From: Desulfobacteraceae bacterium | GTDB taxonomy: Bacteria; Desulfobacterota; Desulfobacteria; Desulfobacterales; JAABSP01 | DNA: 63,951 nt | NCBI GenBank assembly: GCA_011390345.1 | Contig: JAABSP010000027.1 | Span: 1-63,951 of the forward strand | Direction of reading: 5' to 3' | In this document: one piece after another, positions 58,611 to 62,647 of the stretch | Layout of the letters: each line of letters begins with the position of its first letter | How positions within the stretch are numbered: the stretch's first letter is position 1 | Made by a program: the position numbers and the translations under genes | The notes under the pieces: model-generated | What the model was told of the DNA's origin: nothing | What the model saw: only the letters and a program-made list of their open reading frames with translations | The model's database searches: none

Positions 58611-58838
58611 ATGCCAACCGAAATCCATATCACCGTATCCGAATTCCAATCCATATTGACGCAGACCCCTTTGCCCTCCGACATGCGATTGACTCTCTCC
58701 TTTGAAGATGAGGGTTTGGCCAGGGCGTTTTTGAGAAAAAGAAGTGCTGTCGAAGCCATGAAGCGTCTCAGAGGAACCGGAAACGGGAATCTGGTTGCGG
58801 CGCTTCTGAGGGAAAGAAACGCGGATGAGTCGAGATGA
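58611..58838 (+). CDS. Putative antitoxin of the PIN pair
   Basis: 75 aa. TEIHITVSEFQSIL starts it; the C-terminal half is basic and helical (LARAFLRKRSAVEAMKRLRGTGNGNLVAALLRERN). AAAAGGAAC lies upstream of the ATG. Assignment rests on the ATGA overlap with the PIN gene and on the promoter at 58529. Confidence 0.75.
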   Translation: MPTEIHITVSEFQSILTQTPLPSDMRLTLSFEDEGLARAFLRKRSAVEAMKRLRGTGNGNLVAALLRERNADESR

Positions 58839-59257
58839 CGGCGTATGTCTTCGATACTTCTGCTCTGTTTGCCTACATCGAAAATGAAGAGGGCGCGGAA
58901 ACGGTTCATTCTCTGCTGATGAGGGCGATAGACGGCATGGATGAGATTTTTATTTCAGCCATTACGGCTATAGAGATCTTCTATGTTTCGCTTCAGGAGC
59001 AGGGAGAAATAATAGCGGAAAAACGGCTGGAATTGATTCGAGAGCTGCCGCTCATCCCGGTGCCGTTGGATTTGAATCTGACAAAGCTGATCCGCGGTAT
59101 CAAGGCAAAGAACCGAATGTCCTTGGCAGATTGCTGCATCGCGGGGCTGGCTATGTCCAAAAGCGCGACGCTCGTTCACAAAGATCCTGAGTTCGAACAG
59201 GTATCGGATGGGATAGCGCAGGTGAGGCTGCCTTACAAATCGTTTTCGAGGTCATGA
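58835..59257 (+). CDS. PIN-domain toxin (VapC-like)
   Basis: 140 aa. YVFDTSALFAYIENEEGAE (first Asp), AITAIEIFYVSLQE (Glu), RMSLADCCIAGLAMSKSATLVHKDPEFEQV (Asp and the terminal Asp) form a full PIN active site. It is a VapC-type ribonuclease, unlike the VapC at 32422 in sequence. Its start overlaps the antitoxin stop as ATGA. Confidence 0.9.
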   Translation: MTAYVFDTSALFAYIENEEGAETVHSLLMRAIDGMDEIFISAITAIEIFYVSLQEQGEIIAEKRLELIRELPLIPVPLDLNLTKLIRGIKAKNRMSLADCCIAGLAMSKSATLVHKDPEFEQVSDGIAQVRLPYKSFSRS

Positions 59258-59396: not shown

Positions 59397-62300
59397 TCAA
59401 TCCTTGTAAATCCCTTGCATTCGGTAGAGGACGAGTTTTCCGCTGGTCAGGGGGACGGCGATGAGGCAGTCGCCGGAGGGGGTGCAGCGGAAGGAGAAGT
59501 CCCATAAAGGTACGGGTGGACCTTTCGGGGAAGGCAGTTCGATTTTGAAAAGCGCGGTTCCGGTTTTCAGATCCCAGAATCGGACGGTGGCGTCCCCGCT
59601 GACGGTTGCCACCTGCCCGCCATCCGGGCTGAATTCGGCGCGAAAAACCGCCTGTTCATGCCCGACAAAGGCGTGTTCTTCCCCGCCGCTTTCCGTATCA
59701 TAGACATGCACCAAAAGATCGCGGCCCACGGCGGCGATTCGCTTTCCGTCCGGGCTGATGGCGGCCCATATGATCCTTTCGTTCGATTTCGGGTATTCCC
59801 TGATCAATGTCGGGAGCCATGTGCGGATGTCCCAAATGCGCGTGGCGCCGTCAACGCCTGCGCTGAGAAGGCTTGCGCCATCACCGCTGAATGCGACGCT
59901 GCCAACTATTCCTTCATGCGCCGCGTGAAACTTCCCCTCTTCCTTTCCGATCTCGAACAGGCCGATCCTGCCGTCATAGCTTGCGGAGGCGATGGCCTTT
60001 CCGTCGGGGGAGAAGGCGACGGCATGGACGGCGTCTGTGTGGCCTTCAAAGGTCTGGATCAGAGTGCCTTCCTTGGCGTCCCATAGCTTTAGTGTTTTAT
60101 CATCGAAACCGCCCGATATGATATGGCTTCCGTCAGGGCTGAATGCGAGGCGCATAATCCTGTCTACATTTGTGTCTTTCTGTTCCCATAGCGTATCTCC
60201 ATGTTCCATTGAATAGAGAATCAAATCGCCATTTGCACAACCCGCCGCGACAGCCGTCCCATCCGGTGAAATGGCAGAGGAGGCCAACTCCTTCTGAAGA
60301 TCGATGACCTTCAAATCTTCAATATTCATTCCCCACCGCCTGACCGTGACATCATTCGCGGCGCTGTAAACGGCATCATCCTTCACCGCAAGGCCGGTCC
60401 CCCCCGCCTGATGTCCCTGAAGCACCCGAAGCGTGACGCCCGTATCGGTGTCCCAGATGCGGAGAGTGCGATCCATGCTTGAGGATATCAGGCGGCGGCC
60501 TTTATCGATGAATTGAAGGCTGACAACATAGTTTTCATGTCCTCGGAGGACGTTTATGCGATCCCCTGTTTCCAAATTCCATAAGACGATATACTTATCA
60601 TCGCTCGACGAGGCGAGAATCGGTTTGTCAGGGTGGAAAGCCACACCTTGGACAGCATTCGTGTGCCCTTGCAGAACATTTTGAGTTTCCCCTGTTTCCA
60701 CATCCCACACCCGCGCGGTCCGGTCATACGAAGAGCTTGCAAGAAGTCGCCCATCCGGGCTGAAGGCGAGCCCGGAAATATTGTTTTGATGCCCCTCAAG
60801 CGTCCTCAGCCTTTCCCCGGTTTCCCCATTCCATAGGGTGATGTCATTATCCGTGCGGCCGCTGGCAAGCATGTCGCCATTCGGGCCTAATGCCAGCGCC
60901 TTAACTTTTGCCGGCGCTTCCCACTCCTTCAACTTTTCGCCATCCGGAAGCGACCAGAGAATGATGCGGCTGTCATTTCCTGCGGTTGCCAGCCATTTGC
61001 CTTCCGGGTGAAAAACAGCGGCCTTGACACTGGTCTCTTGCGCACTCCCCACGGTTTTATGCCCCACCAACCGCGCCCGCACCTCCCCGCTCTTTTCATC
61101 AAACAGCACGACCGCCCCCCGCTCGCCCACAGCCGCCAGAAGGCTTCGGTCCGGGCTGACCGCAACATTCTGCAATACCGCGCCCGCCCCCTCATACACC
61201 TTCTCCGCCTGCCCACCCATCAGATCTGCATACCACGCCATCAGGTTCCGCGCATAAAGCCGATCGGCCGGCATTTCCTTATCCAGCTCCCGAGTCTCGT
61301 TCAATGTTTCGCGGGCCGCCGCATAATCCTCAATCTTTGCAAGAAGAGAAGCATGCGTGAGTCGGGATTCGAAAAGCTCCAGAGTCCGCTCCAGATACTC
61401 CTGCCTTTTTCTTTCCTCATCCTGCACTTTCTTCTCTTCGCTGGCACTTAAAAAACTCTCGGCAAGATCAAAGTGCAGGCCATAACGACTTGCCCACAAT
61501 GCCGTCGGCCTCTTCTCCTCCCACCACGCCCTAGCATACGCCAGATCCAGCCTCGCCAGCAGATCCCCTTCCTCATTTTTATACCGAATCGCCGCCCTCT
61601 CGATCCGCCTATACATCTCCGCAGACCGAGCCTCATCCGCCAGCCACCCGCGCAGCCTCTCCCACTGGCGCAGCAAGCTCTCATGGGAAACGTCCAGCAA
61701 CGTCTCCGGCCCAAGATCCCCGAGATAGGGCATGATAAAGTTCCGCCCCCGCCCCCGGAAATGCTCCACCACCGTGATCACTTCCTCCGATTCCACCCCG
61801 GCAAGCGCCGCGACCCGATCCACCCGAACCGGCTGCCGGATATCCCGCTGTTCCGTGTCCCGCTTGCTCAGATTCCGGAACAGGATCTCCGCAATCCGCG
61901 CCTCTCTTTCCGTCAGCTCTTTTTTATAAATCGCATCCAGCCGCTCCGACAACGCCTTTCCAAAACCGCCCATCGCCTCATAATCGGCCAGCGTCAGGCG
62001 CACCGGCTCCCGCCCATCCTCTTTTGCCTTGTACCAGAGCCACTGGAGCAGATGCTGGAGCAGGGGAAGATGATCCGGGTTGTCTCCGGCATCGGTCAAC
62101 AGCCGCCGGATCAGCGCGGGTTCGATGTCGCACCCCACCACCGCGGGCGGCTCTTCGATGGCCTCGCTCAACTGCTCCCGGTTCAACTGGGGGGTGAGGT
62201 AGAGCCCCGCGTTGATGGCCTCGGCAAGACCTGGAAAGCCGGCGCAGTCCCCTATGAAATCCGAGCGCATGGTGATGATGATATAGATGTTGTCCGACAT

Positions 62301-62414
62301 CCCGCCGCCGGGAAGGGGATAGGGCATTGAACCGGCCAGCAGGAGGTTTATGAGGGGATTTGCCGATACGATCAGTATCTTTTTGGAAACCATAGTGTTC
62401 ATACGCGCTCGCAT
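59397..62414 (-). CDS. WD40 repeat protein with a truncated STAND ATPase N-terminus
   Basis: 1005 aa. Residues ~21-330 match the back half of an nSTAND1-type NTPase: DNIYIIITMRSDFIGDCAGF, QLNREQLSEAIEEPPAVVGC, DNPDHLPLLQHLLQWLW and SHESLLRQWERLRGWL. The P-loop and Walker B half is absent. The first residues, SKKILIVSANP, match the start of CHAT-type proteins and join straight to INLLLAGS. A coiled coil (~330-400) follows, then ~14 WD40 repeats (e.g. VRFWDLKTG), room for two seven-blade propellers. The product is probably a non-functional or repurposed relic of a conflict-system ATPase. The start is ambiguous among ATGs at 62414, 62402 and 62393. Confidence 0.82.
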   Translation of the reverse strand: MRARMNTMVSKKILIVSANPLINLLLAGSMPYPLPGGGMSDNIYIIITMRSDFIGDCAGFPGLAEAINAGLYLTPQLNREQLSEAIEEPPAVVGCDIEPALIRRLLTDAGDNPDHLPLLQHLLQWLWYKAKEDGREPVRLTLADYEAMGGFGKALSERLDAIYKKELTEREARIAEILFRNLSKRDTEQRDIRQPVRVDRVAALAGVESEEVITVVEHFRGRGRNFIMPYLGDLGPETLLDVSHESLLRQWERLRGWLADEARSAEMYRRIERAAIRYKNEEGDLLARLDLAYARAWWEEKRPTALWASRYGLHFDLAESFLSASEEKKVQDEERKRQEYLERTLELFESRLTHASLLAKIEDYAAARETLNETRELDKEMPADRLYARNLMAWYADLMGGQAEKVYEGAGAVLQNVAVSPDRSLLAAVGERGAVVLFDEKSGEVRARLVGHKTVGSAQETSVKAAVFHPEGKWLATAGNDSRIILWSLPDGEKLKEWEAPAKVKALALGPNGDMLASGRTDNDITLWNGETGERLRTLEGHQNNISGLAFSPDGRLLASSSYDRTARVWDVETGETQNVLQGHTNAVQGVAFHPDKPILASSSDDKYIVLWNLETGDRINVLRGHENYVVSLQFIDKGRRLISSSMDRTLRIWDTDTGVTLRVLQGHQAGGTGLAVKDDAVYSAANDVTVRRWGMNIEDLKVIDLQKELASSAISPDGTAVAAGCANGDLILYSMEHGDTLWEQKDTNVDRIMRLAFSPDGSHIISGGFDDKTLKLWDAKEGTLIQTFEGHTDAVHAVAFSPDGKAIASASYDGRIGLFEIGKEEGKFHAAHEGIVGSVAFSGDGASLLSAGVDGATRIWDIRTWLPTLIREYPKSNERIIWAAISPDGKRIAAVGRDLLVHVYDTESGGEEHAFVGHEQAVFRAEFSPDGGQVATVSGDATVRFWDLKTGTALFKIELPSPKGPPVPLWDFSFRCTPSGDCLIAVPLTSGKLVLYRMQGIYKD

Positions 62415-62580
62415 GGGGATTATGTTCCTTCGGCCTCATGTCCTGTTCCGCAGGGCCGAAATTGCATCGGTATGAAAACGGCTATACCATGAAAAGAAAC
62501 GGTTGGCAATATCCCTGAACCCGAATTCCCCTGATAAGGAAAGCCAAACCGCAAACCCACCAAACCATCAACAAAAGATC

Positions 62581-62619
62581 AAAAAAACAATGGGGCTGAG
62601 ACAACCCATCACAGCCCAT
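62581..62619 (-). terminator. Intrinsic terminator after the DUF362 gene
   Basis: On the minus strand ATGGGCTG (62612-62619) pairs with CAGCCCCAT (62590-62598) with one bulge, followed by seven T broken by one G (TTGTTTTTTT). It lies 30 nt past the DUF362 stop. The rest of 62415-62580 holds no gene; it is the leader of the WD40 gene. Confidence 0.7.
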
Positions 62620-62647
62620 CAAAGTCATCAGATGCATCCGGGTTCCA

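Follow-up and report, generated by a model that had tools for sequence, protein, structure and literature searches.

The nSTAND1 family of STAND NTPases (Pfam PF20703) was named in an eLife article of 2021 (e70394; PMC8195603), and in those parts of the nSTAND1 literature that we consulted, a cell suicide or defense role of such modules is a prediction. STAND-derived proteins that lack a working NTPase are also on record in a conflict setting, as the iSTAND of the MoxR-vWA ternary systems is described in PMC7159879. The open reading frame analyzed here is like the nSTAND1 NTPases in carrying the rear of their domain (E = 1.9e-51) and differs in lacking the first 149 profile positions, which hold the P-loop and Walker B. 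Like iSTAND, its product derives from a STAND protein, has no working NTPase, and belongs to a conflict context; on the other hand, its domain front is cut off rather than changed, and Pfam found no MoxR or vWA gene among the 10 proteins scanned in the window, where the contig ends 1.5 kb from the frame on one side. By the window we mean the whole stretch of DNA that was analyzed, 63,951 nt long.

The frame occupies 59397..62414 on the minus strand, as do all of its parts given below, and was delineated with the ORF list and Pfam. It is a chimera of 1,005 amino acids with an ATG start and zero internal stops; as the preliminary description held, the frame stays open. The sequence AAGGA at 62426..62430, 11 bases 5' of the first ATG, is a putative ribosome-binding site. 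The N terminus of the product reads MRARMNTMVSKKILIVSANPL, continuing INLLLAGSMPYPLPGGGMSDNIYIIITMRSDFIGDC. Residues 1 to 21 (62352..62414) correspond to a CHAT-type gene start, as judged by score ranking and by the upstream CHAT genes of sister loci, with the likeness lying in the 13 residues from M8 (residues 8 to 20, MVSKKILIVSANP). The approximate breakpoint, placed by protein alignment and DNA comparison, falls in codons 21 and 22 (62349..62354). The earlier placement of the CHAT-like segment at residues 8 to 20 was accurate; that of INLLLAGS was one residue early, as residue 21 is L and the first I of INLLLAGS is residue 22. The repeat envisaged at the breakpoint was not found: none of notable size was seen by eye, at a position that is approximate without the parent sequence.

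The nSTAND1 rear spans residues 40 to 282 (61569..62297) and matches PF20703 with 176.3 bits against a curated cutoff of 27.1 (E = 1.9e-51), covering positions 150 to 375 of 379. This profile start and alignment with two relatives, G002 and G182, confirm the reported loss of both nucleotide-binding motifs: the P-loop (Walker A) and Walker B (DQFEE) are absent, and some 21 unrelated-looking residues stand in place of the nSTAND1 front that contains them. Pfam gave no CHAT match in residues 1 to 60, where a CHAT domain with its His and Cys region was looked for. The start codon, the candidate ribosome-binding site, and the reading frame are all preserved at the join. The nSTAND1 rear is followed by the end of a helical hub and a long helix, delimited from an AlphaFold2 model (residues 283 to 402; 61209..61568), and by a double WD40 propeller (residues 403 to 1005; 59400..61208), recognized by Pfam (WD40, E = 1.9e-91) and by 56 strands in the model. 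The sole match of the frame to PADLOC models, HEAT-ARM_XIII (E = 1.3e-35), falls on the WD40 part.

The AlphaFold2 model, built on a 22-row alignment, has a mean pLDDT of 87.1. Residues 1 to 80 are poorly predicted (block means of 23 to 56), the helical hub scores 72 to 93, and most 10-residue blocks of the propellers exceed 90. The 56 strands predicted between residues 403 and 999 would form 14 four-stranded blades in two sets of seven, in agreement with the 14-repeat propeller of the preliminary description. Foldseek ranked the repetitive propeller 2ymu first (TM-score of 0.28 over the model) and Apaf-1 second (PDB 3sfz; E = 6.3e-36; TM-score of 0.34 over the model, a low value for the whole). 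Apaf-1 has a nucleotide-binding domain and a CARD. The likeness lies in a helical hub followed by two propellers, and the difference is that the protein studied here has neither the nucleotide-binding domain nor the CARD. By sequence, no solved structure related to the nSTAND1 part was found, four matches with E values of 0.06 to 0.18 being taken as chance.

Relatives of the nSTAND1 part were collected in a genome-contig scan with an alignment query; the best 80 of 420 matches, at 79 loci, were kept, so that counts on these loci cover the best-scoring part. An earlier scan of genome contigs had given zero matches, and no relative was found on viral contigs. The nearest relative found, G002 (locus L027), lies on a contig identical to L072 (JAABTE010000279.1), from a MAG labeled Desulfobacteraceae bacterium. 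It covers nSTAND1 profile positions 1 to 374, has the P-loop GPSGCGKS and the Walker B DQFEE, and is 75% identical to the window's frame over 305 shared nSTAND1 columns. The front missing from the frame is thus whole in G002, which supports a deletion as the cause, as first proposed. A membrane-type segment between nSTAND1 and WD40 in G002 is absent from the window, and a second deletion was considered; since G182 also lacks the segment, its absence gives no ground for a further loss, and the idea was rejected.

A P-loop is visible in 72 of the 79 loci (best 80 of 420 matches). It starts at frame residue 44 to 115, too early for a fused CHAT domain to precede it, and none of the 72 has a CHAT domain ahead of it. 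The other seven loci comprise four that the contig end cuts, the frameshifted L093, and the truncated L094 and L098. The relatives of the nSTAND1 gene in L093 (6848-9163) and L094 (7004-8020) are, respectively, frameshifted and 5' truncated; L098 (6725-10021) encodes a 1,099-amino-acid nSTAND1-WD40 frame without a P-loop that covers profile positions 67 to 373 and retains Walker B. Among 16 loci that were read, nSTAND1 stands directly at the start in 12, one is cut, and three distant ones (L006, L043, and L044) have another N-terminal extension, caspase-like by reading in L043 and L044. Another relative, G001 (L085 2-1615; L028 reversed), has an nSTAND1 rear joined to a histidine kinase, and a separate frame on its contig (L028 901-1539) carries a WD40 piece. 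The upstream partner of G182 (L064 4198-6687), 829 amino acids long, matches TIR several times and DUF4062 weakly.

In an 81-row FastTree tree of nSTAND1, five loci (L084, L090, L091, L095, and L141) are sisters of the group formed by the window, G002, and G001, with a support of 0.985 at the joining node. A PYPL..S-type loop insert is common to the window, G002, and the five sister loci; the long loops of three further loci differ from it in sequence. A separate CHAT gene lies upstream of nSTAND1 in four of the five (L084, L091, L095, and L141), and L090 has no upstream CHAT. Upstream genes were labeled CHAT or TIR by crude letter patterns at those 70 of the 79 loci whose upstream sequence reached 900 bases or more, the other nine falling short; by these patterns, and within the best 80 of 420 matches, 4 of the 70 have CHAT, 40 have TIR only, and 26 have neither, so that the CHAT pattern is confined to the four sister loci and missing from the other 66. 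In L095 and L141 the CHAT gene runs 4 bases into nSTAND1; in L091 a 19-base gap separates the two, and in L084 an additional frame sits between them. The sister pairs come from Methylococcales-type records, L141 being labeled proteobacterium. The upstream gene of G002 is visible as a 47-residue tail that overlaps the nSTAND1 start; in a small set, the CHAT-TIR protein of L141 is its best match (E = 2e-6), with the TIR-only L076 (E = 0.001) not far off and then L091 (E = 0.002). The subclade of L084, L091, L095, and L141, with L090, has a CHAT-TIR effector partner in four of five members and mostly TPR sensor halves; no description of such a pair was found in the parts of the nSTAND1 literature consulted.

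The frame in the window has its start peptide and loop insert in common with the CHAT-TIR plus nSTAND1 pairs and falls into their nSTAND1 clade. It differs in that their effector and ATPase are whole and in that their sensors end in TPR repeats or in nothing recognized, whereas that of the window ends in WD40. The C-terminal halves are TPR repeats in L084, L090, L095, and L141; in L091, which is cut at the contig end, nothing was recognized at the C-terminal side. WD40 sensor halves were found in G002, G182, and L073. Identity to the window is 75% for G002 and 45% for G182 in nSTAND1 and 61% and 63%, respectively, in WD40, and a WD40 tree joins the window and G002 with a node support of 0.37. 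The propeller half of the window is about equally close to the TIR-partnered relatives and to the nearest nSTAND1 relative. That the WD40 half (59400-61208) and the nSTAND1 half have different nearest relatives (compare L027 and L064) is a sign of domain exchange. Because the two relationships differ, the sensor half was probably exchanged between lineages, separately from the deletion, and the gene would also be a mosaic. An intact CHAT-TIR plus nSTAND1-WD40 pair was not found among the relatives (best 80 of 420 matches); we infer an ancestor with this pairing.

We propose that this ancestor would have been a two-gene conflict module, with an upstream CHAT protease-like and TIR effector and a downstream nSTAND1 ATPase bearing the double WD40 propeller. 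By analogy with the protein families involved, the repeat domain would presumably sense a trigger, ATP-driven STAND assembly would switch the effector on, and the effector would disable the cell. One deletion of about 2 to 3 kb, beginning just after the first CHAT-TIR codons and ending near codon 170 of nSTAND1, would have removed most of the effector gene along with the front half of the ATPase domain, so that the opening codons of the effector now run in frame into the remaining rear part of the sensor gene. The matching span in relatives is 2,464 bases in L091, 1,910 in L095, and 2,930 in L084. Such a two-gene deletion is the best account, given the separate upstream CHAT genes of the sister loci and the start-peptide match discussed below. 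Its support also includes the genome itself, which has no other nSTAND1 over the cutoff and in which the CHAT part of L091 finds no counterpart, although seven other CHAT matches are present; the poor prediction of residues 1 to 80; and the nSTAND1 change counts given below. Against it count the extra frame in L084, the lack of CHAT in L090, and a start peptide too short for family searches. The product keeps the helical hub and the propellers and, lacking the effector, the P-loop, and Walker B, is not expected to act as a STAND switch; the remnant is probably recent and disarmed. We put the probability of this full account, from the two-gene deletion to the recent disarmed remnant, at roughly 0.6, a value held there because the WD40-bearing ancestor was not seen. 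Events of this kind are ordinary, and the history here is unusually readable: a predicted suicide module would have been disarmed by a single event that removed effector and switch while the sensor remained. The comparison also brings out an nSTAND1 subclade that has a CHAT-TIR partner and a swapped sensor half (TPR or WD40).

Possible, though unlikely in our estimate, is the same origin with a product that was kept, the hub and double propeller acting as a non-ATPase scaffold, or as a decoy or brake for another system. Much of the evidence on age and constraint bears on both outcomes. Changes in nSTAND1 specific to the window and to G002 numbered 12 and 11 with G182 as the outgroup, 17 and 15 with L073, and 15 and 21 with L085. 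Among conserved sites, the frame has changed at 1 of the 41 that are invariant and at 5 of the 83 that are nearly so, compared to 0 to 5 and 1 to 8 in 23 other rows. Accelerated evolution of the nSTAND1 part is thus not seen; the lack of excess change speaks for a kept product and is also compatible with recent loss. With G182 and L073, respectively, the counts for the window and G002 were 53/99 and 71/89 over the whole gene and 41/88 and 54/74 over WD40; the nSTAND1 counts alone were used because the outgroup status of G182 and L073 is doubtful for the WD40 part. In codon-likelihood dN/dS estimates, synonymous sites were saturated (most branch lengths of 8 to 20, the lowest 4.9) and one likelihood ratio was negative, at -11.13; these estimates are given no weight. 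About 3.3% of point changes in the frame would create a stop, and the computed probability that it stays open without selection is 0.05 at 0.03 substitutions per site; it drops further once frameshifts are included at a rate set to 5% of that of substitutions. With 984 codons open beyond the junction, either the deletion is recent or the product still matters, and that open frame is compatible with both. A kept product also draws on the 1,005-amino-acid length of the open frame, on L098 as another long WD40 frame without a P-loop (1,099 amino acids), and on the occurrence of ATPase-less STAND proteins such as iSTAND in conflict systems (PMC7159879). However, residues 1 to 80 have no confident fold in the AlphaFold2 model, no partner gene was recognized among the 10 window proteins scanned, and the truncated or frameshifted relatives in L093 and L094 show that plain decay happens too. 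A more specific form of the idea is rather doubtful: loss of the effector and ATPase core may have turned into a function, with a soluble hub and double propeller binding the trigger without killing, as a decoy or brake, and possibly again in L098. If the remnant is kept, it would offer a testable bacterial decoy receptor.

An assembly error or a mixture of strains, in which the contig joins pieces adjacent in no cell, seems quite improbable. The genome (4.79 Mb, 97% complete) is in 199 contigs, and a second genome of the genus was absent among 58 relatives, both of which leave some room for a false join. Yet the 296 bases at and upstream of the junction have no near-identical copy in the genome, where they give short or 75 to 86% partial matches, so that there is no sign of an extended shared word that could have caused a false join, and the pieces meet in frame between genes that are neighbors in the sister loci. 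A search of this genome with the protein found no place other than the frame itself.

We regard it as very unlikely that the start has nothing to do with CHAT and is upstream sequence that lay in frame by chance. The likeness spans about 13 residues, and the 22-residue start alone gave zero matches in plasmids, PDB, and Pfam. We scored 14 residues of the start without gaps (BLOSUM62; self score of 64). The six-frame translations of the window and the fetched loci, about 2.64 million residues, served as the target, including overlapping loci and excluding six loci that repeat the window. The top non-self score, 37, came from the sister locus L091, where it marks the beginning of the CHAT gene that directly precedes nSTAND1. 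Second, at 34, was an unrelated minus-strand frame of L118, a chance hit that outscored the third, the CHAT-TIR gene start of L084 (33). The upstream genes of L091 and L084 both match Pfam CHAT. The CHAT-TIR start of L095 was not among the 41 matches listed (lowest score of 26), and the CHAT frame of L141 has no start of this kind. Since L091, L084, and the others were fetched through nSTAND1 similarity alone, the match of the start to CHAT gene starts is separate evidence, and the ranking upholds the CHAT-type character first ascribed to residues 8 to 20. Two other sources were considered and rejected: no response-regulator start was recognized among the 41 matches, though the window encodes such proteins, and a G182-type TIR start (MAEKKKIFISYARED) was discounted, being absent from the matches listed while the sister group is CHAT-TIR.

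The preliminary description had the frame arise by internal deletion within one fused CHAT-nSTAND1-WD40 protein, and its CHAT source for the start holds; the fused parent itself is scarcely credible, for although the CHAT start and nSTAND1 rear share one frame and the distant L043 and L044 bear an N-terminal caspase-like extension, the CHAT-type motif is missing from the full-length relatives, with no fused CHAT in the 72 relatives with a visible front (of 79; best 80 of 420 matches) and a separate CHAT gene in four of the five sister loci.

Two further features flank the frame. Window positions 62581-62640, beside the end of a DUF362 gene, have 75 to 86% partial matches on several contigs and are perhaps an intergenic repeat. 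At 58611-59257, a small gene without a Pfam match is followed by a PIN-domain gene, likely a toxin-antitoxin pair, convergent with the remnant.
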